A stretch of 64,000 nt of DNA from Tridacna crocea (lineage: Eukaryota > Mollusca > Bivalvia > Cardiida > Cardiidae), in assembly GCA_943736015.1 (NCBI GenBank), contig OX031059.1, positions 20,950,501 through 21,014,500 on the forward strand, given 5' to 3'. Shown one piece after another: positions 521 to 61,965 of the stretch. A program made the position numbers and the translations under genes. Under the pieces are notes generated by a model. It was not told the origin of the DNA, searched no databases, and saw only the letters and a list, made by a program, of their open reading frames with translations. The number at the start of each line of letters is the position of its first letter. Within the stretch, counting starts at the first letter, position 1.

Positions 521-599
521 GTGAGTAAATCAGTGTCTAAAAGACAAACTGGTCCAAGTTTAAGATTTATTATTGTTTTATGTGCTTCCATATTTAAAG

Positions 600-1434: not shown

Positions 1435-1481
1435 ATGTTGTAGTCTGGTTCAGAGTTTATACCATAATTTTATTTCTTCAG

Positions 1482-1698
1482 GGTGAGAGTACCTGCAAAG
1501 CATGTATATTATTACCGATGCCCAGACCACAGAAAAAACTATGTCATGTCATTTGCATTTATTCTCGATAAAGAAGATGATGTTTACCAATTCTCATATT
1601 GCTACCCCTATTCTTACACACGTCTACAGAACTACTTGGATAACCTTGAAAAAAGAAACATGGAATTTTTTACGAGAGAGTTACTTTGTCTGACAGTG
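1482..1698 (+). CDS. AGBL4: AGBL4 exon b: N-domain to peptidase-domain linker, residues 32-104
   Basis: Acceptor TTTCTTCAG, donor ACAGTG|GTAAGG. It encodes VRVPAKHVYYYRCPDHRKNY and later CYPYSYTRLQNYLDNLEKRN, both strongly conserved in CCP6. Phase 1 in, phase 0 out. Confidence 0.93.
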
Positions 1699-1834
1699 GT
1701 AAGGACAATAGTAATTTTCAGCTGATCTGAGCACTTAGAGCTCAAAGTGAGCTATTGTTGTCATGCAGTGCATTTCTGTTGTCCTTCAGTTTTCAATATT
1801 GAATACTGCTGAAAGCTTCTTATGTAGAACAAAA

Positions 1835-2235
1835 GGGCTTAAGGAAGAAAGGGGCTTTTGAAAAAAATGCTAGTACCATTACCACCATTTTCTTTCTTTT
1901 GAAGAAAGTTTTTTCAAAAGCCTATCTACCCTTGTCTACCCATTGCATATCCTCTGTGAACCAAATCTCAACATTTGTTTCTGTCTGCATATGCTTGAAT
2001 TTGAACCTTGGTAAAGTTTTAACATAATTATTCTTACTGGGAAATTTACTTATTGCCAATTAAATGTAGATTGAAAAGTAGAATTTATCTTTAAAAAGTG
2101 TTAAAAAAAAATATTGTGGGAAAAGGAGGAAATCCTGGTTACCAGCATTTTCTCTTTTTGCCTCTATGATTTCAATAGCTTTCCAAAAGCTTTTCTACCA
2201 AGGGTTTTTTAAACATGGCAAAGGTTCAGTTGAAG
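1835..2235. mobile_element. Two decayed MITE A fragments
   Basis: At about 1840-1925 and 2100-2230 parts of the hairpin core remain (ATTGTGGGAAAAGGAGGAAA; CTGGTTACCAGCATTTTCTC), but the arms are mostly unrecognisable. Confidence 0.5.
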
Positions 2236-2259
2236 AAGGGATGTAGATTTTGTGGCTTA

Positions 2260-2491
2260 TTAATCCTATACCCCATAAGGTATTTCTATGATATCTCTAA
2301 TTGACTCTAAATAACAGCAAGGATGAAGCCACCATTTCTTATGTGTATATGACACCTTTTGATAGCATAGAAAACATCGTGACAAAAGGCGAAATTGCTC
2401 ATGACCAGCAATTTCACCTTTTGCCACTATGTTTTCCAAAGGTTCCTACAAGCAATGCGAAGAAATAAGTATCTATGGAGTAAAGGATTAA
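2260..2491 (-). mobile_element. MITE family B copy
   Basis: Reverse orientation of the 28921 copy: ACCCCATAAGG end, GACAAAAGGCGAAATTGCTC core arm, CTATGGAGTAAAGGATTAA end. It stops 29 bp before the acceptor of AGBL4 exon c. Confidence 0.88.
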
Positions 2492-2520
2492 GGATTTAAC
2501 ATACCCATTTTGTGTTTTAG

Positions 2521-2650
2521 CAACAGAGAAGATTAGACTTAATCACCATAACCCATCCAGACAACCTCGATCCAGAAGAAACCAAAAGAATTGTTTTTGT
2601 AACAGCGCGTGTCCACCCAGGAGAAACACCATCTTCATTTGTTTGTCAAG
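2521..2650 (+). CDS. AGBL4: AGBL4 exon c: zinc-binding HPGE motif, residues 105-148
   Basis: Acceptor TGTGTTTTAG. It encodes QQRRLDLITITHPDNL and VFVTARVHPGETPSSFVCQ; H136 and E139 are zinc ligands. The only junction that keeps the conserved QGFIDF reading is CAAG|GCTGGT, a GC donor; the GT four bases further on would shift the frame. Phase 0 in, phase 1 out. Confidence 0.9.
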
Positions 2651-3291
2651 GCTGGTATTTTGTATTTTGATGGTGCTCCATGCTATTTTTAGCCTTATTT
2701 CACACTGCAAGTTATACCATAGTTTCAGCTGTATTTTCTGGGTTTAACCGTCACTGGGCTTGCGGCTCCGAAGTGTCTTGCCCAAAAGCACACATATTCA
2801 ACTTGGTGCCTAGTATTGATCTACATTGTCAATGAAAGGTGGTCTGATTTTGATCTACAGAAATAACCAAATACTGTACAAGTGAAAATGTTTGCGAAGC
2901 TCACTTTTTTCTAATATTGAAAATTTGCGAACTTTCGGTTTGCAGATTTTATCACAGGTATACAAACAATTAGTCCCTTGAGTTTGCAAATATTTCGGTG
3001 CGCAAAATGTCCATAATCTTTAATTGGCAAAATTTTCATCACAAATAAACAGTAGGGCACTGTTTCAGTAATTTTGAATACGTGTAAATGAAAACAATGA
3101 TTCTGTTGTACTGACAGGCCATTTGGTCCATATATACAGGTACACAACAATGCACGCATAGATTTGGACAACAGTTAAGTTTGAAATATTCTTAGAAGGG
3201 GTAGGGTTACAGAGAGAGAGGTACAGAGATATAGAGAGATTGTATCTCTGTTATTGCTTACTAATTGTACACATTGTAAAATGTGATGTAC

Positions 3292-3407
3292 AAGAGGTTT
3301 TTGCACTTGTATGAGAATATATTGTGTTGAACAAGTTCTTTTGGCTGAGTTGCCCAATCTTGTGAGTTCAACACAATATATTTCCATACAGGTGCAATAA
3401 CCTTTTC
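3292..3407. repeat. Foldback repeat, arms about 41 bp
   Basis: Left arm 3292-3332 pairs with 3366-3407; the inner 18 bp (GAATATATTGTGTTGAAC) are almost perfect and the outer part has a few mismatches. The loop is 33 bp. No coding content. Confidence 0.8.
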
Positions 3408-3664
3408 ATTACATACTTCGATATTGTTTACATAATTTCCCCATGATTTAACAATATTTTCATCCAATTCATTGATAGATCTTTTTAAAAATAACATGCT
3501 TTTGCAGAATTTTCAGGTTTGGCTTTTGATGACGTCAATATTGGTAATGGTTTGTAAACGACCATAATAGCAGCCATTCATATTTTGATATTTAGAGAAA
3601 TGGCAGGTTTTGACATAGTTTGGTACTTCGCAACGCATGTGAAAAAAACTCTAAACTACATAAT

Positions 3665-3704
3665 ATGAAAGTATGCAATATGGAAAAATATTGCATACTT
3701 TCAT
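3665..3704. repeat. Small perfect hairpin
   Basis: ATGAAAGTATGCAATAT pairs with its complement after a 6-bp loop (17-bp arms). Confidence 0.85.
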
Positions 3705-3798
3705 CCAGTGCAAATACATGGGGACAATATCAAAGTATATAATATAGTTGTATCAAGTCAATTGAATAGTTCTTAATCTGAAGTTCTGTTCATTTCAG

Positions 3799-3913
3799 GT
3801 TTCATAGATTTTCTGATAAGCAATCATCCAGTAGCAAAGACTTTACGTGAACATATTGTATTCAAGGTTGTACCCATGTTGAATCCAGATGGAGTTTATT
3901 TGGGAAACTACAG
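3799..3913 (+). CDS. AGBL4: AGBL4 exon d: NPDG segment, residues 148-186
   Basis: Acceptor TTCATTTCAG, donor AACTACAG|GTAGCT. It encodes FIDFLISNHPVAKTLREHIV and NPDGVYLGNYR, where NPDG is part of the substrate pocket. Phase 1 in, phase 2 out. Confidence 0.93.
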
Positions 3914-5226: not shown

Positions 5227-5755
5227 CAAGTAATCATACCCCTGCAAAACGAAGGTTTTCGGGGGTTATACTGGAATCAGCCTGCCTGTCTATGTGTCCG
5301 TCCGTCCAACGGTGTGTCTTTCTGCCCGTCCTTACGAGCCCGACATTGTGGGGTTAGGGGTAACTGTACATTTAGTCTCTATGGGGTTCAATCCGTCCAT
5401 CTGGTAGGTATGGGGTTAGGGTTAGGGCTAGTGGGGTTAAAGAAGGTGCTCTTGTGGGGTTGTTTGGGTTGCATTGAATAAAAAGCAATTTGTCCTCACA
5501 AGGTCTGTCTCGTAAGACCTCCCTTGTACAAAATACTAGTAATTTTGTGTCACGAAATCTTCCTACAGTTTTCCTTTAATTATATTGAAACTTTGCACAT
5601 ATATTGTTAATATATTGAAGATTTGATAGACGCAATTTTCAAGTGTCAAATCTTCCTTATTGAGGAATTATCTTCCCTTGAACTTGACACTTTTTTCTGT
5701 CAAAGTGCTGGCGGGGCTATTAAGTCACATTTAGGGACAGCTCTTGTTGGAACTT
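5227..5755 (+). repeat. Mollusc-type interspersed repeat
   Basis: Starts ATACCCCTGCAAAACGAAGG, continues with GGGGGTTATACTGGAATCAG and a CCGTCCGTCC stretch, and ends near GTCACATTTAGGGACAGCTC. I recall similar sequence scattered through mollusc genomes. A short GGTTAGGGTTAGGG run lies inside at about 5411-5430. It ends 8 bp before the acceptor of AGBL4 exon e. Confidence 0.6.
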
Positions 5756-5763
5756 TTTTGCAG

Positions 5764-5875
5764 ATGTTCACTGATGGGTTTTGACTTGAACAGACACTGG
5801 TTGGAGCCATCACCATGGGCACATCCTACTTTATATGCAACAAAAAATCTTCTCATGGAATATGATAGAGATGAG
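5764..5875 (+). CDS. AGBL4: AGBL4 exon e: FDLNRHW substrate-binding segment, residues 186-223
   Basis: Acceptor TTTTTTGCAG, donor GATGAG|GTAATG. It encodes [20 protein letters not shown] and 17 further residues. The Asn and Arg of LNRHW bind the substrate carboxylate in M14 peptidases. It lies directly after a mollusc-type interspersed repeat. Confidence 0.93.
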
Positions 5876-5955
5876 GTAATGTACCTATTTTTTTCATTAT
5901 GATTTTTAGGGTTACAGGACTTACGGCCCTCTCAAGCCTCATTACGTGTTGTTGT

Positions 5956-6183
5956 TTAACCCTTTCCCAGGTGACAAAATTTTAGCCCTGTCCAAATTGA
6001 AAGCATTTGCAGACGACAATTTCAGCATGACTCATATGGTGCAATTGTTTATTGATAGGGTAGAAAACATTATGGGAAAAGGAGAAAATGCTGGTTACCA
6101 GCATTTTCTCCTTTTACCACAATGTTTTCAAAAGGCTTCTTTCCAAGAGTCGTCGAAAGTCGTCATTGTTCGGGAAAGGGTTG
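5956..6183 (-). mobile_element. MITE family A copy
   Basis: TTAA-CCCTTTCCCAGGTGAC left end; hairpin at about 6062-6130; the right TTAA has become TTGA. Confidence 0.85.
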
Positions 6184-6309
6184 AGGAAAAGCGTTGAGGT
6201 TTTGTATCACCCTCTCTTTGCACCATCCTTGTTGTTGTCAATATGCAAAAACTTTGACATTTTTTCATATTTTCGTCATTACTGAAGAAATTTTCTCAAA
6301 ATGTAAACT

Positions 6310-6735
6310 CATTGCCACACAATCTAAAATTTAGACTTTTTTGAAATTGAAAGCATTTACAGATCCCAAAATAAAAGCATCTCAAAAAGTTAAATTGAAT
6401 TTTGGAAGGATAGAAAACATTGTTGAAAAAGAAGAAAATGCTGGTTACCAGGGATTTACTAAAGGGTTAACTTAAACTAGTTGAGAACTAAACAGGTTGT
6501 AACCATCACAAGAACAGCAGGAAATTTGCAAGATATTTATTTCTCGCAAGACACCCTGCAAGATATTTATTTCTATTTATCTCTGAATATTAGACATAGC
6601 TCAAATAATGTTTGGAAGTGTAGAAAACATTGTAGGAACAAAGAGAAATTGCTGATGACCAGGAATCTTTTCAATTCTCACCAACCGTTTCTCCAGGGAG
6701 TCATTAAAATTATAGATTGTTTTATAAACAGTTAA
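6310..6735 (-). mobile_element. Two incomplete MITE A copies
   Basis: 6310-6470 has the left hairpin arm joined straight to the A-arm end (ACTAAAGGGTTAA), so half the core is gone. 6605-6735 is a strongly decayed copy. Confidence 0.65.
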
Positions 6736-6876
6736 AGCAAGATGCCAGGCAATGATGGCACTTCTTCCTCCAAACTCAAAAAGGAATTTATGATCTCTTT
6801 ATAAGACAGGAAAGTTTCTATTTTGTCTAAATAGAAAATTCAAATTATTTGAGGCTATTGGAGAAATTATAATGGT

Positions 6877-7083
6877 TTAACTCCTTATCAAATGACAAAT
6901 TTTGGTCTGGAACAAATTCAAAGCATTTGCTGACAAACAAATTAAAACCTTGCTAATATGATAATTCCTGAATTAAATAGGGAAGAAAAGATTGTGGGAA
7001 AAGGAGAAAATGCTGGTTATCAGCATTTTCACCTTTTCCCACAATGTTTTCCATAGGCTTCTTTCACAGGTGGTAAAGAGTCA
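6877..7083 (-). mobile_element. MITE family A copy
   Basis: TTAACTCCTTATCAAATGAC left end, near-perfect hairpin around 6983-7049. Confidence 0.85.
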
Positions 7084-7298
7084 ATCCTTTTGTTGTCATT
7101 TTTTTTTTTTTCACTTCCTGGGCAGAATATCCCAACCTTTGAGTCCTTGTTTGCCTTGAGAAAATTTCAAAAGATTGATTTTTGTTTTGTTTTTGACATG
7201 GATATTAACTTCCAGTCACATGTAGTTGTAGTACAAGTTATACTTGTTACAAATGTTTGTTATGGTTATGGGTGTAGTTCATATAGAACTGAGCTCTA

Positions 7299-7527
7299 AC
7301 ACTTTACCACACAATCCTGACTTTTGACGACCCTGGGAAAGAAGGGGTTTGAAAATATTGTGGAAAAAGGAGAAAATGCTGGTAACTAGTATTTTCTCCT
7401 TTTCCCACAATGTTTTCTATGCTTCCCAAAACAAGTTTCAGTAATTGAGTCACATTTATTTTGTCATCTGCAGATGCTTTGAATTTAAAATGGTCCAAAA
7501 TGTTGTCATTTGGTAAAGAGATAAAGC
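7299..7527 (+). mobile_element. MITE family A copy
   Basis: ACACTTTACCACACAATCC left end, R-arm end GTCATTTGGTAAAGAGATAA. Confidence 0.85.
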
Positions 7528-7664
7528 ATGCTTGAGAATGAAAGGGTTTTATAAAAAGTTCCAAATGTTTTTTGAAAAAAAGGCAAAATTATGATAATCA
7601 GCATTTTCTGTGTTAAACACCGTAGCCTTCTTCCCAAGGATTTTAGTTACATTAAAGTATCTGG

Positions 7665-8127
7665 TTAACCCCTTTACCGCATTCGCACAATGCTAACTAT
7701 TTAACAACCCCAGGAAAGAAACCTTTTGAAAACATCATAGGAAAAGGAGAATATACTGGTTACCAGCATTTCATCCATTTCTCTCAATGTTTTTCTACCC
7801 TATCAAAGAAAAATTGCACCATTTGAGCCATAATGAAATCACTAACTTTCTGTTATCTGGTTAAAGGCTAAGGATTAAAAGTGCTAGGTGTCACATCAGT
7901 CACCCTTTTAACCCATTACCATACAACCCCTACCTTTAACGACCCTGAGAAAGAAGCCTTTAGACACCATTGTGGGAAATGAAGAAAATGCTGGTAACCA
8001 GCATTTTCTCCTTTTTCCACAATGTTTTCTACCCTTCACAAAAATTTCAAATTTTCAGTCACTTTTATTTTGTCGTCTGCAAATGCTTTCGATTTGCACA
8101 AAATTGTGTTGTTTGGTAATGAGTTAA
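7665..8127 (+). mobile_element. Two MITE family A copies in the same orientation
   Basis: 7665-7868 is decayed on the right; 7908-8127 is complete with TTAA at both ends and a good hairpin. Confidence 0.82.
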
Positions 8128-8562
8128 ATGAAAAGCAAAGTTTTACTGGAAAAGCAGCTACTATAAATCAACTGGTCAGTTGGTCTGTTGGTGAAAGGCT
8201 TATCCATATTAAAAGCATTTCCAGACAACAAATTAAATGTGGCTTTAATAATTGGAATCATCTATGAAGGTGAAGTTAATTTTCCCACAGTGTTTTCCAA
8301 AGCCTTGACCTGTAGACTTTTCAAAACATGAGATTGTTTGGCAAGAAAGTAAATTTGCTTAAATAACTCAATAGAGTGAGAAACTCTAGCATGCTTACTT
8401 TGGTACAGAAAATTTGAACTGTATTGGAAAATATTCTGTGGGAAATAATCAATAACAATATTAACCCCTAGAGCTCTGAAAGAAACAAAATGGACATTTT
8501 CATTCAAGAAAATTATTCAAATATTGCAAGATAAACTTTGTCTTTAGCCAGCATATCTCAGC

Positions 8563-47290: not shown

Positions 47291-48397
47291 ATTCCTGGCA
47301 AATGAAACATAAAAAATCTCATTAAAATTTTTAATCTCTCATAATTTTTTAGCAAATGGAACATTTTCTCTCAAATATATGTCCAACCAGAATGATCCCT
47401 GAATACCCCAACCTAATCTAGACTAGGAGTGCTTTCATTCCCCTCTCAAATGTCAAGTGGTTGTGCTTCTTCTTTGCCTTGGTAAAGTAGCTGTCTGTAT
47501 AATTTGTGAGCAGAGCTTGTCGTCGTCCAAATAGATAATCAAATAAAAAACAAGCTAATTCATTCTTGGGCGTTTAGTCATCAGTTATGGGTAATAAATT
47601 CAAGATGTTAAGTAAGTGCTGGTATTGGTCTGGCTGTGGGACTGTGGACACACCAAGTCATATAATGCAATTATCTAGTGTGGAGTTTCCGGCATAATAC
47701 TGTAAAACGCCCCACCATAAATTGCGAAAACCCATGAAAATCAAAATTACGTGTCAAAAAAATGCAACTGGTTTATGGATTCATTTCGCATACACTGAAT
47801 ACAGACAACTCGCCATTAGCGGATCACTATCGAAAAGGCTGGAGTTAATTAAACGGCCATTAGCGTTTGACGGCAAAAAATGGTATCGCTGGAAAGGATT
47901 TTCTTTACACTTTCAGATGCATATTGTTTTCTGGGTCTGCTGACATACATGTCGATAAACATTGTTGTCAATTTAACCCCTGTATATGTACCATTACCGG
48001 ATCAACTTAACCAATAGCGGATCACGTGATATCACTGGTCTGGGGATCGACTCAAAATTAATTTTACCTGTCAATGGTGTCAAACCATGAAGAAATCACC
48101 CATTCAAGATTATATAACCAACTCTGGTAACTGTAATTGTATTAGAAGACTAATTAAACAAGTGTGGTTCACAGATTTTTATTACATATCGCAACTAAGT
48201 GAGAATTTGTCAGCTACAAGCCAAACCATGTTAAACATCCCTGTGTTCTACCCGTAATGTAAATTAAAATCAGTGTTCTATTGCTTGGCAAGAATAGACT
48301 GAGACATGTAAAGGTTTGGTGTTCTTTATAAGCTTCAATGGCTTTTTTGTCATATTTTTCCACCAAATGATACATTGTAGAATTTGAAGATGAAAAT

Positions 48398-48850
48398 GCA
48401 AACTCTTTACCAAACAACAAAATTTTAGACCAGTCAAAATTGAAAGTATTCGCAAGGTGGTCCAAATGGCAAAATTTATTCTGGATAAGATAAAAAATAT
48501 TGTGGGAAAAGTACAAAAATGCTAGTTACTAGTATGTTCTTCATAACCCACAATGGTTTCAGAAGGCTTCTTTCTCAGGGTAGGTAAAATGAGCTTTTAT
48601 TTCTAACTTGTATAAAAACATTAGAAATAGTGTAAGGACAGAAAAATCCTTGTCACAAGAAAGAAAACCTCTTGAAGACATTGGGGGAAAAGGAAAAAAT
48701 GATGGTCACCAGGATTTCCTCCTTTCCGTATAATTTTTAAAAATCCATCAAAGAAAGAAACCATCAATTTAGCAAAAGTTATGTTATTGTATGCAAATGC
48801 TTTCAAAGTGGACAATTGCACAATTTTTTTGTTTGATAAAGATTGAAAAA
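48398..48850. mobile_element. Two decayed MITE A copies
   Basis: 48398-48590 (-) and about 48650-48850 (+). Hairpins are weak (GTTACTAGTATGTTC; GATGGTCACCAGG). Confidence 0.65.
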
Positions 48851-49151
48851 TACTGAATTGTTTGGAGCATGTAAATGTCAAAGGAGGTTTTATAATATAA
48901 CCTGGTTGTTTTAATACATGTATTTTGAAACTGATTTAATTACTAAATCAATGGATGAAATATCTTAATGTCTCAATAAAATCATGCCATAATACAAGTA
49001 TAATGAACAAGAAAAATACTTTTGTAAAAAATATGAGAAATTCTCTAAAGTGACATTAAAAAGTTCCATTGCAGATCCTTCTGGTATTTTGGACAAAAGT
49101 TCTGATAATTTGTTAGACTGTGACTAAATATCAGGATGAGTAATTGTATAG

Positions 49152-49567
49152 TTACATGGTAAAATAAATAATACCCCTGCCTTCCCCATCCTTTTCTGGC
49201 CAAGGGGAGAAGCTTGGTATAGGATCTCCAGTAACCTCAGCAAAAACACAGCCATCCTCAAATACTGATCTAAAATACCCAGGTAGTGTTAGTGGAACAT
49301 GCCCAATAGGCAAACAAGCTTTAACTGGGCGCTTCTCATCAGTAATTGAATGATGTATGTTATCGAGAAAGGAATCTAGTGGTGGTAACCACACCAAACA
49401 AGCTCAAATGTCATGGATATTAGTGTATTCAGGTTCAACATGTAAACAGGTAGGGGGTGTAGTAAAGGGTGGTCTAATTTGAAATGTGTGATTTCCTTTT
49501 ATGACAGAGTTTCTTAAAATCGAGGCATTTTCATTTGGTTTGTCCGAGGCCTCTCCTGAGACAGCAC
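49152..49567 (-). pseudogene. Unrecognised coding-like remnant within F3
   Basis: One frame reads EYDGGAVSGEASDKPNENAS at its start and PLTLPGYFRSVFEDGCVFAE, VTGDPIPSFSPWPEKDGEG further on, with codon use like real protein. It is interrupted, so probably not functional as it stands. A possible acceptor (TTGTTAG) precedes it. I cannot assign it to a family. It may be part of the gene that once served F3, or a captured exon. Confidence 0.4.
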
Positions 49568-50049
49568 CACCGTCATATTCCTAACAATAAATAAGAGTTA
49601 CTATCTGAAATCTGTTACGGAACTGATTGCAGTCTTTGTGATTGATGTAGAATCAAATCAGCCAGCATGGAAAGATGCTGGTTGGTTCTGAGTCTGAATT
49701 TAATATGATACACCATTTTTCTCCTTATTTTACTGTAGCCTGTAACGTGCGAATTTTGGCCGATATAAGTTGCATAATGTATTGCACTGGGTCTGCCTGT
49801 GCAGTATGAGTAAGCTTATCTGTGGTTTTCTGCTTCTGAAAGCCTAGTCTGGGGAAAAATAGGTTATTAAGGCAAAAATAACATCTGAGAGTAGTCTGCA
49901 CAGACTACTTATGCTGATCCGAGACAATATTTTTCGCAGATGTCTAGAGGCCCCATTTCGCATGTTACAGATCATAATTATGTAATAAACGAATTTTTTA
50001 GCATTACCTTATGAAGTCCCATAAGCAAGAACCCTTTGAAAGCATTGTA

Positions 50050-50224
50050 TTAACCCTGTACACACAATCCCAACTTTTAACAACCATAAAAAAGAAAGCT
50101 TTTAAAAACATTGTGGGAAAAGGAGAAAATGCTGGTTAGCAGGATTTTATCCTTCTCTCACAATGTTTTCACAAGTTGTCTTATTCAAGGTCGTTAAAAA
50201 TCGGCATTGGGTGGTAAAGGGTTT
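50050..50224. mobile_element. Symmetrical MITE A variant with two A arms
   Basis: Starts TTAACCCTGTACACACAATC and ends GGTCGTTAAAAATCGGCATT then GGGTGGTAAAGGG: the A arm is at both ends and the R arm is absent, giving a 175-bp inverted repeat. Confidence 0.82.
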
Positions 50225-51253
50225 ATAATAGATAAAGTATCTAAAGTGATGTGGGTTATAATTGATTGAAGAGTATGGTTACAAAAAATAATTTGAACAC
50301 TGACTAATGCTCTGTCAAACACATCACAAGTCATCAACATGAAAGAAAATGTGAAAACTTCATGTCAAAAGGCGGAGAATATTTTCCTTTTATCGCAATA
50401 TTTCCAGGGCTAAACACTAGTCTACAATTGATTTTAGATAAACTATTATAATATGTAGAGTATGGTATACGAGAAATCCGAGTAAAATTATGTGTAGAGG
50501 AAAGGGTTAATCAGCTGTACATTGAGTGTGTAATTTTGAGACGGCCCCCATATGATGCAGATCACTGATCCGTTATTGGTCTGTTCGGGGTATGTCGTCT
50601 TTTTATTAATGGTGCACAAATAAACAAATGATAGGAATAAATGAATATATCGATCGGAAGTCTATATATTCTTCCTTCTAACAGTGCCAACTTTTAACTT
50701 TAACTGTCCTCTTTCATTTGTTTTTTTCACACCGATGTTACAAATTTCATTTTCAAAAGCGGAAACCTGATGACCGACCAGACACTTGGATTTCGTTTCG
50801 ATAATCTGAATAAATAAATCAGGCTCAAAGATTCATCTAACTTTTTGATGTTTTTCAGAAGTGGTCAGTTTTCATGACTACAACTTTTTTTTCAATCTTC
50901 CTTGCCTTTAAGTTGGGACACTATTCAATTAAACTTAGAGTGATCCGCTATTGGTCATGATCCGCTAATGGCGAGTTGACTGTACAATATTTTTCAACAG
51001 AATTAATTTCATTAAATTTCTTCTTTTAACTCAAAAAACAATGTCACATGTAAGCATTGAGTGTATAGCAGAGGGGCGTTTTACGGTATTATGTCCCATA
51101 ACATAGTAATGGATCGATAACAACCACTTTTTTTTTCTTTTTTGACGATGGACTGCATCAAGGGGTAGACAGTAGAGGTCCTTGGACCGTCAGACTGAAG
51201 GTAAGCGAATCCGTAAGAGAGCCACAAAGTAGCCTTAACCACCTGATACTTAC

Positions 51254-51256
51254 CAT
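51254..51256 (-). CDS. SNU13: SNU13 exon 1 candidate: initiator ATG directly at the donor
   Basis: AAAGAAATG|GTAAGTATC has a strong donor right after an ATG, which exon 2 requires. Weaker alternatives exist: ATG|GTAATC at about 46463 and ATG|GTACAT at about 47989. Chosen for donor strength and for the GC-richer flank upstream; unproven without transcript data. Confidence 0.55.
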
Positions 51257-51350
51257 TTCTTTAAAGTTGTAGGTCTTATATTTCAATATTTTCAAACTAT
51301 TTCCTCTCAGCCTTTGCTTCACTGAGGATTAACTCGTTCCACGTGGTTCG
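51257..51350 (-). promoter_or_regulatory. Possible SNU13 5' UTR and promoter-proximal region
   Basis: If exon 1 is right, the transcript start lies here. CCACGTGG (51339-51346), a palindromic E-box type site, is about 85 bp upstream of the ATG. No TATA box is evident. Confidence 0.25.
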
Positions 51351-51552
51351 GGAAGATGTTAGTAAACAGGAAGTTAAGTTTGAAAGGCTGGTACCCAACT
51401 CATATAGACTTGTTTATTCTGCGGACCTGCTGACGGGTTCATCCAGCGGATGTCCATTTTCATACATTAAGGCACAAGTAAACAGTTTGCTTCGAAAAAA
51501 AGAAAAAAAAGTGATTGTTATCGATCCATTAGTATGTGATGGGGCAAAATAC

Positions 51553-52110
51553 CGTAGAGGTCTTTTGAAAACATTGTGGGAAAAGGAGAAAATGCTGGTA
51601 ACCAGCATTTTCTCCTTTTCCCATTATGTTTTCTACGCTATCGAATACAAATGTCCTCATTCGAGGTGCTTTTAAATTTTCATCTGTAACTGCTTTCAAT
51701 TTTGACGAATCTACATTTTGCTTGTGGGTAAAGGGTTAACCTTTTATCAAACAAAAAAATTTTAGACTCATCCATATTGCTTTTGCAGACGACAATTGTT
51801 CTAATGTTTGGGTTTGTCTGTGAAAAGATAAACAAACACTGGCAGCATTTTCTCCTGTTTCCACAATGCTTTCAGATCTCAAAGCCTTCCTGTTTGGTTC
51901 GTTTAAGCCATTACTTCACAATCCCTATACTTTTGATGATCCTCACATCGTGGGAAAAGGAGAAAATGCTGGTAATCAGCATTTTCTCCCTTTCCCCCCG
52001 CAATGTTTTCAAAAGAAAGTTTGATCATTTGAGCCACAATGAAGGTGTCGTCTGCAAATGCTTCCAATTTGGATGGGTCTAACATTTTGTCGTGTGGTAA
52101 AGAATTACAA
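51553..52110. mobile_element. Three linked MITE A copies
   Basis: 51553-51739 (+, lacks the A-arm end), 51736-51907 (-, hairpin mostly lost) and 51903-52110 (+). Junctions share TTAA. Confidence 0.8.
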
Positions 52111-53710
52111 GTCAGGATTGTGTGGTGAAAGGTTTATCTTCAGGCCACTGAGACAGTGATAAATGAATAAGCTGATCACTGCAATAGTATTTTCATAAAT
52201 GGTGCAGAAACAGCTAAAAATTACGCTCTTAACCCATTTTTCAGCAGACACTGTTTGTGTGCATGTCAAGTTATTTACACAGTTGCAACAAAGGTGTTGG
52301 AATGAATTGAAAAAGTCTATTGAAAAGTAAAAATCTTTTTTTCTCATCTCAATATGCAAGCCTAAAGTATTGGCTTCATTCTGATTTGTGAGGGGGGAAA
52401 TGGTTCACAGTAACCTTACTTTCAGTGACAGACAATTTCAAAAAGTGCACTTATACAGCAAAATCGATTGGATATTTCGGCAATATGGTTATTGTGAAAT
52501 ATTTTTTGCCACGAGATACGAGATGACTTTTGTGATACTTTAAGAGAACTATCACAATAAAACAAACTTTTATGAAAATTTTATCTATACAATGGAAACT
52601 TTCGGTAAAACTACGGAGATAATTCTCACTGATACCACGTTATTTTAAGGTCTGTTCTTATGAATACGACAGTTCGCAACAATTTGATTCTTTAGATCGA
52701 AATAATTATTTGTGGTGTTGGGAATGAAATGTTAACGACCAAAGATTTTTCAAAAGCATAGTTTTCAGGTACAAACTTTATTTTATTATATATATATTCA
52801 CATACATGTAGTTTCTCTCTCTATCCACCACGCATCTTTCTGTCAAGGGACGTTACTCCTGACTCTTATTAATGATCAAAGGGAGACTACCTATATATAA
52901 ATAATCCTAACTTTGTCATGAATACTCTCCTCAGCAAAAAGGTATATTTTTTGTAGGTTGACTTTCAAGCCAATATTTAAATAATATTTCTCTTTGTCAT
53001 TCAAATTATTAATCCCACACAAAGGCGTTCGTGACAAATACCATTTCAGCGTTCTCAATGCTTTGATTTTTCGAGGTTTAAATGACCAACAACATAACCT
53101 CCGAGCAAAAGAGATATTTACCGAAAGCATTTGACATTACGTATTGTATTTTAATCGAGACGAAGTCATGCATGAAGGAATGGTCTCCAGTAATACCCCC
53201 TCTTAAAGGTGGTCCTTCAGACTTTGGTACAAAACATTTACAAAAATGCAAAAGAATCATCTTTATATTCCCAAAGCCTATTATCTCCCGCTAGATGGCA
53301 TTCTATAAATACTCATCTATCTAATTTGGGCATCCTGGGTACAGAGCCGAACCACTTTCCTACGCGTCAACCGTTCCTTTGAAAATCAAACTAAAATAAA
53401 CGTTTACTCAATAAAAAGCTACTCATGCTATTTACTCAGCTATGATAAGCAGTTTAGAGAAATCTGGAGCAAAAGCAGGTCTCATTTCTCCTCAAACGTA
53501 TTGATAAAAGCTATTTTCTACATTGCTGCTTTATAGTGCGTAATATTACAGTCTGCCCGCTTTCAGGGCTAGTGATGCGTCATGTAAGACAGTCGAATCT
53601 TCGAAGAATATGACATGCGCAGACAACGTCCCAAAGCCTTTTAATTTTCATTCATAAAACTCCAGTTATCGAAAACCATCCGACAACACGAGAAATTAAA
53701 GATTTACTAC

Positions 53711-53833
53711 GGCCCCAGCAAACATGATAAACTGGGTCCTATATGGGCAAATCCTGGGCTAAATATCTATATGGGACCTATGTGGGTCCTTTGCGGGAAT
53801 TTCAGCCCTTCTGGAACCCACATAGAGCCCATG
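53711..53833 (+). repeat. F4 left array (CATATGGG-type)
   Basis: GGCCCCAGCAAACATGATAA, then TATATGGGCAAATC, TATATGGGACC, TATGTGGGTCC in near-periodic order. Start and order match the reverse complement of the array ending at 63907. Confidence 0.7.
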
Positions 53834-53941
53834 TTATTTATATACTCATAAACCTTTACAATGTAAGATAAAATAAATCCAAACAAGTTCACTCTCACCG
53901 TACACTATTTTTGTCTGTTATAGTAGAAGTTTAGCGATGAT

Positions 53942-54169
53942 TTAACCCTTTCCCAAACAATCCCTGGTTTTTACGGGTCAGGAATAGAAGCCTTTTGAAA
54001 ACATTATGGGAAAAGGAGAAATGCTGGTAACCAGCATTTTCTCCTTTTCCCACAATGTTTTCTACCCTATCATATAGAAAAATCATCTTTTTAGCAACTG
54101 TTAATTTGTCATCTGCAAAATGCTTTCAATTTGGCCTGGTCCAAAATTTGCCGTTTGGGAAAGGGTTAA
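53942..54169 (+). mobile_element. MITE family A copy
   Basis: TTAA both ends, good hairpin; between the F4 and F1 left arrays. Confidence 0.93.
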
Positions 54170-54656
54170 ACTCCAAAACCTGTAACAATTGGGTCATTTG
54201 GGTCCCATTTATCAATCAGCAGTGACGACTGGAGACGGAAATTACCGATGAACTTCGGTATGAGAGTTTTTTTCAACAAGTATCATTAATTCTATTTCTC
54301 TACTGTTTAATTGTGCCATTTTACATTTTTTAAACTTCAAACATATTTTATCTGATAAAAAATATGAAGAAATACACATTTACGGATTGAACTGATATTC
54401 AAAAACAAATTGCGCGCGATCACGTGATGTAAACAGAAATATCCGTTGAGAGCAAGAAGTAAGCGGTTTGAATCATATTCAAAATGGATTAAGCTCTACT
54501 CATGAAATCTACTCCTCGTTGCAGGCATGTATATGGTATGTATTTCAATTGTTACTCACTACACTTTTTTTGTAAATCGGTCAGCTGGTTATCATAAAAT
54601 TGGAGACAAATTTCGTATTGTCACATGAATTCGCGTCGCGCCTGTTTTGGTAACTG

Positions 54657-54752
54657 GTCAACTCGTACTGAGTCAACACGTACCTAAGTCAACTCGTACC
54701 TATTTTGGTCAACTCGTACCCGAGTCAACTCGTACCGAAGTCAACTCGTACC
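54657..54752 (+). repeat. F1 left box array
   Basis: Six GTCAACTCGTACC-like boxes, linkers mostly 3 bp (TAA, CGA, GAA), one 7 bp. Confidence 0.95.
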
Positions 54753-55192
54753 TAAGGATTTCTTATATCTTATTTTGCGACTTTTATCAGTATCAGTATG
54801 TTTAATTAATGATGTGTTTATATGTTTGTATTTTTCTTATATCCTCGGAGGTCCATGAGTCGTTACCCTAAGAGTTTAAGCTACCGAAAAAACCGCAGTG
54901 CATAATGTACGGAATAAATAAACTCTTACCTTATGAAGTATTCTATTTTCTACCATTTCGTCTGATAATTTCATACAATCAAACTATCAATTTGGAATAA
55001 TGAGAATCTTTTCACATCAAGTGTAATAGCAGACGCCATTTTGAAGGAGGTCCTTGAGTCGTGACGTCACGTTAGTAATGTACATAGGCCATATTAAATG
55101 TTATTATTCGTTTCAAATGATTTTTGTGCCAAGTTTCTCGTAACTTAACTTTGAAGTAACAAAAAGGAAAACACTCTAAAATGTGGGTGGAG

Positions 55193-55308
55193 GAAGATTC
55201 GGACCTAAGAAGATTCGGCCCAACGCAAAATCTTGAGAAGATTCGGACCCAAGAAGATTCGGACCACCTATGAGAAGATTCGGCCCAAGGTAGAAGAAGA
55301 TTCGGCCC
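55193..55308 (+). repeat. F2 left box array
   Basis: Six boxes, steps 16, 28, 16, 21 and 22 bp. Confidence 0.95.
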
Positions 55309-55994
55309 TAATTTTGAAAACAGCATATAGTGCAGGCAATTTCCATATCTTGCAATTATACTTATTTTTTCATTAAACGAGAATGCCCAATAAGCAGGTT
55401 AATTTGATACATGTATATAGGTTTTGTCCCACTTTGTTGTTTTGTAATGTATGTTTGCATGCACATTAAAGATGAAAAGAATTTTTTTTTTTGTATTTGT
55501 AAATGATTATACGGTACATTACACAGTGTGAAGATACTTAAAAGTATAGATTACAATTTTTTTTTTCACAGTTTGATGATGAATAAGATAAAGAAATGTA
55601 AATGCAGTTTTCACAGTTTGAAGATGTTTTTGCAATACTTGTCATAAATTGGCGATTTGTAATTGTATTGATGTATTATGAATGGTATGTATTGATTTAA
55701 TAATTGTTGATATCGTAATTTTTTAAGTGTTCTCATATGTGAGGGTAGATAAATTTGATAGTATTGTATAATGAATGTGCATCAGATACATTATTACTAT
55801 ATGACCTGGAGACTGTGATCCGATAACACAGAACCAAAAATTCGATTAACTGAATACACCGCTATAATACATTTTTTTTTTTTTATTGCTATGTGTGATC
55901 TTATGTACATGAAACATTAGCAAAAAAGGTTTTTATCTAGTTAGGACATAATATCGTCGGATATCACGAATGTATCAATTTCCAGACTGTTACT

Positions 55995-56200
55995 TAAGGC
56001 CTTTAATCTGACAACTCCGACTCTTAAGGACAATGTGAAAGAAGGGTTTTGAAAGAAATTGGAAAAATGACAAATTGATTGTAATTTTTTTCTGCTTTAT
56101 CTACATCGTTTTCGTATGTTCTTGGAGGTCTTTAAGAATGGTACAATGTTAAAAAAAATCGTCTGCAAATGTTACGTTCATTATCATTGTCTTGGACGGA
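55995..56200 (+). mobile_element. Very decayed MITE A inside F2
   Basis: CTTTAATCTGACAACTCCGAC and GAAAGAAGGGTTTTGAAAG recall the A arm; a second faint trace at 56770-56940. Confidence 0.4.
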
Positions 56201-56520
56201 CAAGAAAGGGTGCATTCTGATCTGGTCTATATAACACCTTTACAGGATCGCCAAATTACTACTTGGTTTCTCAGAAAAATCGAAATTTAATTTCTGTTTA
56301 TAGTTAATTACATCTTGTTGGGATTGTGACGCTAGATCAGACTGCGGTAAATTGCGATCACATCTTGACGCTAGACGGCTTTGGTATGTCTATGTATTAC
56401 TGCTTGATTTGTCAGAAAATCTCCTAACCTATTGTTACTGTTTTTAGTTAATTACATATTGTAGAGAGTGTGGTGCAAGATCAGACCGCAGTAAATTGCG
56501 ATCCGATCTTGAGACCAGAT
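56200..56520. repeat. Two-copy duplication inside F2, about 144-bp step
   Basis: TTTAGTTAATTACAT and GATCAGAC-GC-GTAAATTGCG occur twice, around 56305-56365 and 56448-56512, each with an internal GATC-rich inverted repeat. Confidence 0.75.
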
Positions 56521-57583
56521 TAAAATTCTGTGTGTTATGATGTTGAAGTACACTTTTCAACATGGCGAGTAAAACGGGGTGCAGGGTTTAATCCTATTAC
56601 AGTCAGACACGCGTTATCACTTTGTGAAGTGTTATTGTTGATTGACTTGGAGAAGTTCTATAATTATGTCATCGTATTTTTCATAGTTTTGATTTTTCTG
56701 GGAAAAAGTTATCTCTCGGCTTTTTAACAAGTTCAACTTGAACTGACTTTTTAACGTTTGTATGGCAATGCAGATTATAGAGAGATTGTTGGCAGCCAAC
56801 TTTTCTCCATTTTCCGAAATGTTTTATACCTTTTCAAAAGAATCCCAACCATATGAGCCAGATTCAATTTCTCCATTGCAAATGAACTTTTTTTTTTTGA
56901 CAAGTCTACATTTTCCAAGTTGTAAAAAAATCAATTATGTCCGATGTCTTAATGTGCATAACATCACGATTGGAGAGAATTTGCTGGTGGCCAACATGTT
57001 TTCTTAAATTATCTTAAAATGCTTTTTTCTTTTTTTCATATCCCATAATAATATGTAGTTAACTCTTGAACCGTATTAAATTGTCGACCAAAAATGTTTT
57101 GAAATTGACAAGTTCACATCTTTCTCCTGTATACATGTTTCGTTTGAAGAAGTAATAGGTAAAATCAATGCATGTATTACTCATTTACAGGAATTTCACT
57201 ACAAGAGTACTTTTTCCAAAGCAAAATAAAGTGCAAATAAAGTTCAAGCCGATTTTTTCAGTGTCTCAGTAAGATTGTTCCAGAACAAAGAGAAAATTAC
57301 TCTCGTAGATTGTTAAAGCAAACAAAACATACAGCCAATAATACAAAAACAAAATATGAAAACTGGTCCGAGTTCTCTCTTTTTCTCATCGATTGTGCCG
57401 AATCTTCTCCAAAAAAGGGATGAGAAGTACACCACTAAAATCAACTAATAATGGCGTTAGCAGAACACGGTAATAATCGTTACGTTCTGCAAAAACAATA
57501 TGGGCGATTAAGATTACTCTAACGTTTAAGAATAATTAGTTCAATTAGGTAATTTTACTGGTACAAACAATATAATATAACTT

Positions 57584-57692
57584 GGGCCGAATCTTCTCAC
57601 CCTCGGGGCCGAATCTTCTCACCTGCTGGGCCGAATCTTCTCGAAAATCGCTGGAAGGCCCTGGGCCGAATCTTCTTGGGTCCGAATCTTCT
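57584..57692 (-). repeat. F2 right box array
   Basis: Five boxes reading GGGCCGAATCTTCT on the + strand; the outer two are stepped 16 bp. Confidence 0.95.
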
Positions 57693-57769
57693 GACATCCC
57701 TAAAATGTTAATTAACTATTGTAAAACTTTTAACTGGAATTGTTTGTATATTTTCAGGATATATTTTGA

Positions 57770-59614
57770 TTACTGTTCTGGCTCACAGTGGTGACAAAGG
57801 AAACTGTCACCCCTCCTAACCACCCTGACTGATGTGCAATAGATTAAATGAACCCAATGGTCACAGTTGTCACATTGAGCCCACTTAGTAAATACAAGAG
57901 ACATGCAGTTTCGTAATTCAGCTGGCTGAAACTTGTTACATTTGCAACACAGCTCAGTGGGATCTATATCAGACTCTGGTTCACTGTCAGAGTCAGAGGG
58001 CAGAAGATTAATTGTTGAAGGACCTGGTTGAGGTTCTTTTGTAGCTGCACCCTTAGATTTCCTCTTGATTAAACTTTCTTTGTGTTGCAACATTACAGAT
58101 TTTTTCTTGTATTTTTGGTTACTTTCATGACTTTCCATCAAGGCCTGAACAGTTTTTGATAATTCTTTTCCTGAAACAATCTTGCTGATAGTTTTCCTTT
58201 GTTTTTTTCCTTTGCCACTTTTTACTTCTTTCAAGCTCTTCTCTTTTTCTCTAAAAAATCTTTCTGTGTTTTCCTGACTGTTTTGTTCCTTTGAAATATC
58301 ATTTTCTGCCACACAGCCACCAGTAACAAATGCGATATCTGCCTCATCATTATTTTCAGCCTCCATCTGACCTCCTTCAATGGTTGCCTGGCTGTCCTGT
58401 GAATAATGGTCATCATTCTGAATAAAAACTTCTGCTGGTTTCAGATATTCACCTGGCACTGAATCAGGATTGAAAGGGTAGACACCTGTGCGTCTGAAAC
58501 CAGACTGTATGTTCTCTGGAGATAAGGCTTTTGTGTAAGCTTTACAAGCCATGCCACAAATATTATATCTGTTTATGGATTCTGCTGATTCCCTTATGTG
58601 TTTATGGCAAATAATATTGTATATCTTTTCTAAGGGTCCATAACAGGATACATCCATTGGCTGTAAAACATGGCTGGTGTGAGCTGGTAAAATGAAAATA
58701 ATGATACCTTTCTCTCTGGCCCATTGTACAAGATTCACAGAAATGTGTGAGCGGTGACCATCAAGTAGAAGTAAAACTTTCTGACCATCACGTCCTGGTA
58801 TGAATTTAAGAAAATGGTTTTCCAAGTACTCTCGAAAAATATTGCCATTAGACCATCCAGTTTCACTTACAGAAGCCCCAGTACCTGGTGATGCTCCTTC
58901 CATCAGCTCTTGTCTCAGACGTTTTCCTGGGAAAACAAAAAACGGAGGAAGAGAGACCCCACTTGCACTTCCTCCACCCAAAATAGTAACAGTTTTACCT
59001 CGGCCAGAAGTTACAGCTTGTGGACAGATTGCAGCATCAGCAACAACATGGGGTGGTCTATGGTCCACAGAAATTCCTTTCTCATCCACATTAAAAATCA
59101 GGTGTGGCTGGTCTAATAGTCCATGTTTCATCAAAGTTTCTTTTAAGTTTTTGAAATAGTCAGTCACAACTTCCAACGATGTTGTTTTTGCCCTTGCATG
59201 CTCTAATCCTCTGGGTTTAAGAACTCTTAATTCTGGCCAGCGCTTCAAAAAGCCCCTCATCCATTTCATGGTAAATGGTTTCTCTCTTGTTCTCTTGCCT
59301 AAGTGCACAGCATAGTCTGAAGCAATATTAGTACATTCTTGTCTTGTGTAACCATACCCATATGATGCCATGGTTTTGAAATGGTTGACTAAATTTGCCT
59401 CCTCAAAAAGATCTAACACTGGGCTCTTTCCAAAAACCGCTGTCTCTGCGTCCACTTTTCCTAGAACTCGATCCCTAAGTGTAGTGTCAGGCACCTTGAA
59501 TATTTTTGATGCTTTCTTTACCGATATTTTCTGTTCCTTAACCATCATGTAAGCATTTGTCATGCTGGTGGGAGAATAGAGCCTGTACTTGTGTCTTCTG
59601 GAAACAGGGTTTGG
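57770..59614 (-). CDS. Transposase exon 2 (HTH, DDE core, PHD-like finger)
   Basis: 614 codons and TAA. The acceptor TTCTGTTCTTTGCAG precedes it; the frame stays open a little upstream (to 59671), but that stretch is pyrimidine-rich intron. Neighbouring small ORFs on both strands are shadows. Confidence 0.94.
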   Translation of the reverse strand, partial: PNPVSRRHKYRLYSPTSMTNAYMMVKEQKISVKKASKIFKVPDTTLRDRVLGKVDAETAVFGKSPVLDLFEEANLVNHFKTMASYGYGYTRQECTNIASDYAVHLGKRTREKPFTMKWMRGFLKRWPELRVLKPRGLEHARAKTTSLEVVTDYFKNLKETLMKHGLLDQPHLIFNVDEKGISVDHRPPHVVADAAICPQAVTSGRGKTVTILGGGSASGVSLPPFFVFPGKRLRQELMEGASPGTGASVSETGWSNGNIFREYLENHFLKFIPGRDGQKVLLLLDGHRSHISVNLVQWAREKGIIIFILPAHTSHVLQPMDVSCYGPLEKIYNIICHKHIRESAESINRYNICGMACKAYTKALSPENIQSGFRRTGVYPFNPDSVPGEYLKPAEVFIQNDDHYSQDSQATIEGGQMEAENNDEADIAFVTGGCVAENDISKEQNSQENTERFFREKEKSLKEVKSGKGKKQRKTISKIVSGKELSKTVQALMESHESNQKYKKKSVMLQHKESLIKRKSKGAATKEPQPGPSTINLLPSDSDSEPESDIDPTELCCKCNKFQPAELRNCMSLVFTKWAQCDNCDHWVHLIYCTSVRVVRRGDSFLCHHCEPEQ

Positions 59615-59678
59615 CTGCAAAGAACAGAAAAAAAGATTAATGATTACATATTTTAGTATAAGTACCTGCATCTCTAAC

Positions 59679-59904
59679 TTAACCCATTACCACACATTCC
59701 CTACTTTTGATGCCCCTGAGAAAGAAGCCTTTAGAAAACACTGTAGGAAAAGGATGAAAAGCTGGTAACCAGCATTTTCTTTTCCCACAGTGTTTTCTAC
59801 CCTTCCCAGAACAAAGTTCAATTTTTTAGTCACCTTTATTTTGTCGTCTGCAACTGCTTTCAATTTGAACCAGTCTAAAATTTTGTCGTGTGGTAAAGGG
59901 TTAA
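59679..59904 (+). mobile_element. MITE family A copy in the transposase intron
   Basis: TTAA both ends; the right hairpin arm has lost about 5 bp (GCATTTTC-TTTTCCCAC). It lies about 65 bp upstream of the exon 2 acceptor. Confidence 0.92.
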
Positions 59905-60138
59905 AGATATAAGAACACAGGTCTTGGAAACACATGAAAAAAGTAATTGCGGCCTAACGCATTCCTTTTGTATCACGTGACTTCCATTGATCGATCTTTA
60001 CTGTAAGAAATGGTAAAAAGTTCAGAGTGAAAAATTACGTGAAAACACACAAAAAAATCATCAAAAAACCTCTAAAATATAGAATTAAGGATTTTTGATA
60101 AATTCTAGTGGTTATATTTTGTATCTTAAACCGCTTAC

Positions 60139-60153
60139 CTGCTTTTGACGCAT
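60139..60153 (-). CDS. Transposase exon 1 (MRQKQ)
   Basis: ATG CGT CAA AAG CAG|GTAAGC. It joins in phase 0 to the acceptor at 59615. The product then starts with a basic MRQKQPNPVSRRHKY, typical just before a psq HTH. Confidence 0.75.
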
Positions 60154-60826
60154 TTTATCTTCTCGTAGTAAAAAAACGTTCGAAAACTCGTAGTAAAACT
60201 TTTCCCACGGTCTGAGCATGCGCAGTCGAAATCCCGCGAGATACGAGATGAAAACAAAAAAGTCACGACTCAAGGACAGTAACGAATCTAGGACCCCCGA
60301 CGATATATTGACATCATCAAAACGATTACTAAATGTTTTACACCAATTAGTCAGTTTCAATGACAGGTAACTTAAAAAAGCTGTCACTTTACACTGGATA
60401 AGAGGATTAACACCTTTGATACTTTCACGGTCATAAATGACTCGCCAACTTCATTAACGTCCGCGTGTCCTTCGCAATTTATACTGATAGACAGGCTATG
60501 TTAAATGAAGTTCTAGACGATTATTTCATGCGTCGGATTGACATTTAGGCAGATATTTTTCATTGTCAAAGACAGGCATTTCAAATTTCAAATTGTCAAA
60601 ACCCGGGCTCAGGGATCAAATTAAAAGCTTGCCGAGTTGTCAAGTTTTGTCAAGACATCCATGGACAAAGTTTTCTTTCTCATTTTCCGGCCAGTTTCTG
60701 TGTTTGTTATCCACTATGTTTAATCCACAAAACGGGATTCCTCAATCGACTTTCGGAATCGGAATCGGAAACCAACTGACTTTTGACTATAGTCGATCAT
60801 CAACCCACCACTATGTTTTCATCTAC

Positions 60827-60903
60827 CTTCAGTCTGAAAGTTTGCTCCGAAGCTATTTTTGTTATTTGTCTCCTCAAATTCCAAGCTAACTTTCAGACTG
60901 AAG
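60827..60903. repeat. Short inverted repeat, 16-bp arms
   Basis: CTTCAGTCTGAAAGTT and its exact complement, 45 bp apart, just inside the F1 right array. Confidence 0.88.
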
Positions 60904-60931
60904 CTATAGATATATCTATCTTTTTTACAAA

Positions 60932-61079
60932 GGTTACGAGTTAACCAAAACAGGTACGAGTTGACCAAAATAGGTACGAGTTGACTTGGGTAGGTACGAG
61001 TTGACCAAAAAACAGGTACGAGTTGACCAAAACAGGTACGAGTTGACTAAGGTACGGGTTGACTTAAGTACGAGTTGAC
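60932..61079 (-). repeat. F1 right box array
   Basis: Eight boxes GGTACGAGTTGAC on the + strand. Outer steps are 16 bp, inner steps 20-22 bp with CAAAACA linkers. Confidence 0.95.
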
Positions 61080-61082
61080 TAG

Positions 61083-61965
61083 AAAGCGCTGTTTTGCATT
61101 ATCCGTCTGCCCATATTAAATCAAGGTTCTGGATTTTGATGAGCTTCTATTCAAAAGTCATGAACGAAACGCTTACGCATGTCATTTTTTTTCAGCATGT
61201 TACTGAATGTGCTGGCTTTTGACCTATATTTGCTAAGTCTACTGATAAATTGAATAAATGGAAATTTATGATTGATAAAAAATGTTGACATGTTTATTTT
61301 AAGGGGCCCGGGGCTATTTGTGGGCAGATTTACGCGTTCTATCTTTTTTTTTGAAGATATTTCTTATTTTGGATGGCAGATTGTACAAATAGCTACTATT
61401 GGAATTCTTACCTAAGAATTTCTGCAGGTGTTCAAGCCCGTACTTCTGTCATAAATAGAATATACTAACACATCTAATACTTACTGTCTGGAGAATTAAA
61501 AATGTTGTTCAGAAAATTGAGAACTAGATATTTATTAGGCACAGTATCAGAGTCAGCTTAAAGTGGAGGTATATTTCGACTTTCAATAGTTTAGTTTTTA
61601 TCAGTTCAGGGTATGAAGTGACTTTTAATAACATTGTATTATTTACACATAGGTGAGATGCAGCACTTGGCTGAACATGGAGGAAGGACAATTTGTACTT
61701 TTAACTGAACATGCAAGAAAATATAAACTCATAGGAACTACGGGAAAGCTGTAATTCGAAAACCTTGGATTTACAGTTATGATATTTGGTGAGTTTGACT
61801 GTTTAACTTTTTTTGCACCCAATTCAACAGTATGTGTATCATGTGTACATGCATTATGTATCTGTAGAATTGTCTTTAAAACCATCTCATTTTTCACAGC
61901 AGTTTTACAGGAAATAATTATTTCTTTGGTAGACCTATGGTCATGATGATTTCAACTGAATTATA
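61083..61965. other. No recognised feature
   Basis: AT-rich DNA to the right of F1, no gene, MITE or SINE seen. Confidence 0.55.

Follow-up and report, generated by a model that had tools for sequence, protein, structure and literature searches.

Three families of short repeated boxes, F1, F2 and F3, lie in a 64,000-nucleotide stretch of the Tridacna crocea genome (contig OX031059.1, here C4, positions 20,950,501–21,014,500; hereafter the window), where their likeliest role is to serve as docking sites in the termini of cut-and-paste transposons. Elements of two superfamilies are probably nested here: F1 and F2 of the Mutator-like element (MULE) type, and F3, together with a transposase-bearing element inserted into F1, of the pogo type. 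A preliminary description of this DNA had placed all three families in one transposon lineage whose multi-site ends diverged in specificity. This is supported for F1 and F2, which share a tip-plus-array plan, 8–9-bp target duplications and similar as well as intermediate boxes, but not for F3, which has TA duplications and pogo-like ends.

Boxes and ends of F1, F2 and F3

The repeated boxes are genuine and far above chance. When up to one mismatch is tolerated, 13 F1, 12 F2 and 6 F3 boxes are counted in the window, compared with 0.02, 0.02 and 0.00 on average in shuffled sequence. Genome-wide, in an assembly of 1,048,827,098 bases and 31 contigs, the exact F1 box occurs 807 times and its reversed control 19 times; the F2 box pair occurs 399 times and the F3 end, with up to two mismatches, 47 times, both against 0 for the controls. 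The tandem look of the boxes is all that speaks for unrelated satellites or simple repeats, a reading of negligible probability: the boxes stand at both ends of few-kb bodies with target duplications outside them, and F1 left ends are spread over 18 contigs. The inverted arrangement described earlier for both ends was confirmed for F1 and F2, whose boxes have opposite orientation at the two ends. F3 hardly forms an array, the right end carrying two boxes at a 17-bp step and the left end a single outer box, with scattered inner copies. Linkers of 3 bp, which had been thought to predominate, account for just 8 of the 21 F1 and F2 linkers, the remainder being 2, 7, 8, 9, 15 or 22 bp long.

Both F1 and F2 are flanked by duplications outside a short tip that precedes the first box. 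The F1 tips, of 8 nt, are GGTAACTG and GGTTTCTA or GCTTTCTA. An 8-bp duplication is present at the expected place in five of nine F1 copies, within the range of 8–11 bp given for MULEs in the available part of PMC6446971. F2 copies show direct repeats of at least 9 bp in 11 of 13 cases, each separated by 7–8 nt from the outermost box at either end; one further copy has 8 bp and one none, and these duplications likewise fall within the MULE range.

The boxes of F1 and F2 agree at 8 of 13 positions, as had been noted, with P 0.005 in the register originally given and 0.035 when shifts and both strands are free. Bridging boxes support a common descent of the two. Beside an F1 copy on contig C1, locus L095 (1019–3089) contains two arrays separated by about 2.1 kb. 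They comprise twelve boxes, in mixed orientation, that differ by at most one base from GAGAACTCGTACC, itself identical to the F1 box at 11 of 13 positions and to the F2 box at 9. A box of this type, again with at most one mismatch, also occurs in each of the F2 copies L034 and L035 but is absent from L092, and the window F2 carries the related box GAGAACTCGGACC in its interior. The body of L095 gave no match to MULE transposases beyond chance level, and its arrays are probably those of a further gene-less family.

At the F3 ends, TA stands directly outside CAG[A/T] at 11 of 12 ends in six copies, as in pogo elements. A core, AGCGG, lies at nt 19, with a second 17 bp further in at the right end. 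The nine bases of the F1 box, GTCAACTCG, that had been reported beside the F3 outer box are present at one end, within the tip and not the box; the opposite end reads GACAACTCG in all six copies examined, namely the window and five others. Position 47693, from which the three families had been said to extend, belongs to another inverted pair outside F3. This 21-bp pair, CATAATACTGTAAAACGCCCC (47693–47713 and 51073–51093, 95% complementary), lies just beyond the F3 borders and may mark the termini of a small element that received the F3 insertion.

A separate pogo-type transposon inside F1

The transposase gene found between the F1 arrays belongs to a separate pogo element and not to F1, since it has its own TA-flanked ends and F1 copy L033 retains the uninterrupted site. 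The protein, P0001 (57770–59620, −), matches DDE_1 (4.3e-20) and HTH_psq (8.1e-5), the domains of a pogo transposase, and has aspartates D179, D287 and D323, the last two separated by 35 residues. Its C-terminus, presumably a PHD finger, matches SETD3 chains weakly (E 0.02). A PDB sequence search gave three weak matches (E 0.021–0.037), and Rfam at gathering thresholds gave no match within the window. The genome contains at least 108 matches to P0001, with 71 of 795 candidates scored. Element borders were sought by comparing copies of P0001 paralogs, and the ends at 54840 and 60305 are of the type seen in L003, here family E. At the site corresponding to the insertion, L033 has one TA run and no insert, consistent with the TA duplication of pogo elements; the window F1 additionally lacks other F1 sequence beside the insert.

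An open frame sitting between the F1 arrays, and the presence of such a gene in a second F1 copy (L003 region), could be taken to mean that the transposase is F1's own, which would make F1 an autonomous pogo element binding GTCAACTCGTACC. This is extremely improbable. The gene's own ends carry different boxes and recur in L003 and at the one defined end of L002; L033 has the site without the gene; the two type E elements occupy different positions in F1; and F1 duplications are 8 bp, not TA. The own ends and the uninterrupted L033 site thus led to rejection of the window gene as that of F1. As a separate observation, of the 98 listed F1 ends, 2 have one of 70 pogo places within 10 kb, where 0.14 would be expected. 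The coordinates of all features are collected in Table 1.

Table 1. Elements, ends and exons in the window, in window coordinates.
Feature	Position	Strand	Details
F3 element	47802–50982	.	~3.2 kb, no long reading frame; TA at 47800–47801 and 50983–50984
F3 left end	47813–47826	+	one outer box
F3 inner box copies	47991, 48011, 50566		
F3 right end	50941–50971	−	two boxes 17 bp apart, at 50941 and 50958
F1 left target duplication	54641–54648	.	CCTGTTTT; right partner GCTGTTTT at 61088–61095, 7/8 match
F1 left end	54649–54752	+	8-nt tip GGTAACTG, then six 13-bp boxes GTCAACTCGTACC (54657–54752), two with one mismatch
Pogo-type transposon, family E	54840–60305	−	separate element, at TA inside F1
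Family E ends	54840–60305		left TATCCTCGGAGGTCCATGAGTCGTTAC, one box; right TATCGTCGGGGGTCCTAGATTCGTTACTGTCCTTGAGTCGTGAC (reverse complement), two boxes 17 bp apart
F2 left target duplication	55176–55184	.	9 bp, CTAAAATGT; right copy 57700–57708
F2 element	55185–57699	.	nested in pogo element; 8-nt tips GGGTGGAG and GGATGTCA
F2 left array	55193–55308	+	six boxes GAAGATTCGG[A/C]CC
F2 inner box	57365–57377	−	GAGAACTCGGACC, one base off the L095-type box
F2 right array	57584–57691	−	five exact boxes; sixth, one mismatch, at 57395–57407
Pogo transposase, main exon	57770–59614	−	HTH_psq, DDE_1, three aspartates; open to stop codon
Pogo transposase, probable first exon	60139–60153	−	MRQKQ; splice donor GTAAGC, acceptor TTTGCAG ending at 59615; by-eye inference
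F1 right end	60933–61087	−	eight reversed boxes (60933–61079), innermost with two mismatches, then 8-nt tip (reverse complement GCTTTCTA)

Probable membership in two superfamilies and the divergence of the boxes

Judged by their ends, F1 and F2 appear to be Mutator-type elements that lack genes and form one related group. A search of the genome gave 61 matches to the MULE domain PF10551, and four MULE families bear inverted arrays of 13–15-bp boxes at 14–16-bp steps, in opposite orientation at the two ends. The L077/L078 family has a 515-aa frame and end boxes GGACGTTTTGGCC at 14–15-bp steps, and its protein P0002 (L077) matches FLYWCH (4.5e-12) and MULE (2.5e-9). The L080 family has boxes CCATTTCGCCC at 15–16-bp and longer steps; its protein P0003 gives a MULE match only, FLYWCH being matched some 300 bp upstream, and only one end of its second copy, L079, falls inside the stretch examined. 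Families L081 and L082 have boxes GGACAAAACCCCC and GGACAATTGCCCC, respectively, at steps of about 16 bp, and their transposase frames hold stops. Flanking direct repeats measure 11 bp in L077, 9 in L078, 8 in L080, 9 in L081 and 9 in L082, an 8-bp match being one that can arise by chance in this search. The plan of tip and subterminal boxes seen in F1 and F2 is that of FLYWCH-type MULEs, both in this genome and in the published elements Muta1 and Tm1. Compared with the four MULE boxes, F1 and F2 together are identical at a mean of 5.5 of 13 positions (shuffled 3.42, P 0.0002), F2 alone at 6.0 (P 0.0006) and F1 alone at 5.0 (P 0.05); these P values are optimistic because the register, set near the tips, was chosen after the boxes had been seen and because tips vary in length, that on the left of L081 being shorter than 7–8 nt. 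The 503-aa FLYWCH MULE (L077/L078, C5:63820279 and others), with 18 full-length matches of 99–100% identity, 15 of them without stops, has probably been active recently.

Besides this choice of register, several observations weigh against the assignment of F1 and F2 to MULEs and of F3 to pogo. The F1 duplication in the window is inexact, and three of the nine F1 copies have no repeat at the expected place, one of them adjoining the L095 array on its right side. No FLYWCH match is listed for L082, and seven more diverged MULE places (L083–L089), with about 2 kb considered on each side, showed no comparable inverted array. Bodies of F1, F2 and F3 copies that were tested had no match to P0001, P0002 or P0003, including P0001 in the F3 copies, and the autonomous member with F1, F2 or F3 ends that the preliminary description proposed to look for was not found among the copies listed or tested. 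When 87 MULE or FLYWCH places collected by hand were compared in position, none of 98 listed F1 left ends lay within 10 kb of one (0.19 expected by chance), and 1 of 100 listed F2 tips did so (158 exist; 0.18 expected), pointing away. The three F1 ends nearest a MULE stand at 11.6, 20.2 and 25.3 kb, the first pointing away and the other two belonging to gene-less copies. As for F3, its boxes have no TCG core, its tip CAGTCAACTC is unlike the mostly TATC starts of pogo families, and, apart from the two in the window, no F3 end lies within 25 kb of any of the 70 pogo places; the transposase near those two is part of a separate element.

Long copies were considered as autonomous candidates and rejected, none of them matching P0001–P0003. 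L034 (F2) carries an insert that by eye resembles a long interspersed nuclear element, L035 is enlarged by DNA that lacks long frames, additional DNA is also present in L036, L090 and L091 (long F2 or F3 copies), and L092 (F2) has two inserts. The insert of L092 at about 567–3890 has frames of 182 and 258 aa (−), and its second lies at about 5444–8207. Places matching HTH_Tnp_Tc5 were also considered as F3 partners, none lying inside an element in a comparison made by eye only.

Because no encoded transposase was seen in F1 or F2, their superfamily is read from the ends, and other superfamilies with 8–9-bp duplications have to be weighed. hAT and P elements make 8-bp target duplications, and Merlin elements duplications of 8–9 bp with GG tips. 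Membership in one of these superfamilies is nevertheless unlikely, given the 9-bp duplication of F2 and the occurrence in the same genome of MULEs with the same plan of tip, array and spacing and with similar boxes. Merlin was rejected as a home for F1 and F2 on just 5 short hits to its IS1595-type transposase in the genome; hAT and P were not searched for.

F3, which combines a TA target with a pogo-like core and second-box spacing, looks like a gene-less pogo-type element, though less certainly than F1 and F2 look like MULEs. The terms of comparison are the seven pogo families among loci L001–L030 whose ends could be defined: A (L011), B (L012), C (L022), D (L024), E (L003 and the window), G (L008) and H (L025). 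All begin with TA, which is not independent evidence because the starts were partly chosen on it, and share a core, TCG or in family B TCACG, which lies at nt 20–21 from the TA at 15 of 16 ends, the exception being the right end of G, with the core at nt 25. At one end, a second core lies 16–18 bp further in. At the other, families B, D and H have a TCG- or TCACG-type match 16–19 nt on but no clear box, so that the single-box end is unambiguous in just four families, A, C, E and G. Copies of two pogo families (L010, L011 and L020; L023, L024 and L027) are 99.0–99.8% identical over more than 3 kb, suggesting that both have probably been active recently.

A single lineage embracing F3, with boxes and transposase co-diverging, would draw on the F1–F2 similarity and the bridging boxes, and on the nine F1-box bases at one F3 end. 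It is very improbable, since F3 duplicates TA and bears one or two outer boxes at each end, spaced as in pogo, in contrast to the 8–9-bp duplications and at least five boxes per end of F1 and F2 in the window, and since the nine-base match falls in the F3 tip and is replaced by another sequence at the opposite end of six copies. Because no F3 transposase was found, we infer rather than observe that F3 belongs to a different superfamily, an outcome that the preliminary description had itself named as speaking against its view. That MULE and pogo ends resemble each other in the length and spacing of their boxes looks like convergence. The co-evolution of boxes with a DNA-binding transposase, envisaged in the preliminary description, is suggested by sequence comparison across the four MULE families, where box identities of 10, 8, 6, 5, 3 and 3 of 13 accompany transposase identities of 62, 44, 43, 25, 28 and 21% (r 0.94; 1 of 24 permutations as high, the lowest possible count). 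It was not seen for the DNA-binding domain in the seven pogo families, where box and helix-turn-helix identities gave r 0.15 (1289 of 5040 permutations as high) and box and catalytic domain identities a weak r of 0.37 (244 of 5040). With four and seven families, co-divergence in MULEs is a lead and not a result.

These observations are probably best explained by a mechanism in which each element's transposase recognises a site that is present in several copies at that element's ends. At F1 and F2 ends, several molecules per end would dock on the box array through the MULE zinc finger, with the catalytic domain cutting at the 8-nt tip and inserting with 8–9-bp staggered joints; the transposase would be supplied in trans by an autonomous copy. 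The boxes of both families probably descend from one MULE box and have diverged by family. In F3 and family E, which insert at TA, the helix-turn-helix of the transposase would bind the box, with its CG core about 20 nt inside the end and a second box 16–18 bp further in at one end. In the window, F1 was inserted first; the pogo element then entered F1, and F2 afterwards entered the pogo element. A more specific proposal is tentative and somewhat doubtful: that FLYWCH MULEs and HTH_psq pogo elements independently reached arrays of 13–17-bp sites at about 1.5 helical turns, and that MULE arrays record a drift of specificity from F1 GTCAACTCGTACC through GAGAACTCGTACC and GAGAACTCGGACC to F2 GAAGATTCGGACC, the old box being kept at the inner edge of F2.

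One other repeat recurs through the window, a palindromic hairpin AAAATGCTGGTAACCAGCATTTT with flanks at about 60 sites in 64 kb (51589–51611, 54018–54040 and 59756–59778, among others). With up to three mismatches it gives 116 matches on both strands, most sites being counted twice, against a shuffled mean of 0, and it is also present within the presumed transposase intron.

Comparison with known systems

MULEs with subterminal tandem boxes are known from a mosquito and a nematode; new here are families from another eukaryote, together with pairs of transposase and box. The four MULE families provide a short natural series in which the choice of DNA site by a FLYWCH finger can be studied, because box identity tracks transposase identity among them; the seven pogo families, with their one-plus-two plan, are a second series with no visible link to the DNA-binding domain. 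A limited collection of literature yielded no account of mollusc MULEs with subterminal tandem repeats. A bivalve transposon survey reports MULEs in all mollusc genomes it analysed and, in its available part, makes no mention of box arrays (PMC10294476).

Available parts of two accounts of the pogo superfamily (PMC7386202, PMC7325037) describe terminal inverted repeats mostly of at most 40 bp and report HTH_psq for Fot and Fot-like transposases. The window element resembles the superfamily in its TA duplications, the three aspartates of DDE_1 and a helix-turn-helix N-terminus, and F3 resembles it in TA and short ends. The one-plus-two box plan goes unmentioned in those parts.

As described in the portions available, Muta1 of Aedes aegypti has a 10-bp tip, nine 12-bp subterminal repeats with 3–4-bp spacers, 8–9-bp duplications, FLYWCH and DDE domains, and more than 300 putative non-autonomous derivatives with variable insides, while Muta5 of the same species has an 8-bp tip and nine copies of a 15-bp subterminal tandem repeat (PMC5225508). 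F1 and F2 are like these elements in having a tip, then a subterminal box array, and 8–9-bp duplications; they differ in box sequence and in mixing 16-bp steps with steps of 20–22 bp and longer. Tm1 of Meloidogyne (Mutator/Foldback) has, in the part of its description available, asymmetric 7-bp tips, a variable number of 13–15-bp tandem repeats, mostly 9-bp duplications and a Phantom-type transposase (PMC3169594); its repeat CGATTCAGTATCCGC differs from the boxes described here, and the linkers of F1 and F2 range from 2 to 22 bp. The MULEs of the same genome (L077, L080, L081 and L082) share with F1 and F2 the inverted arrays, duplications of 8–9 bp (an 11-bp match in L077), a G at the box start in three of four and CC near the box end, but they carry a transposase frame and have boxes sharing 3–10 of 13 positions among themselves. 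F1 and F2 fit the published kind of MULE with subterminal tandem boxes exemplified by Muta1 and Tm1.

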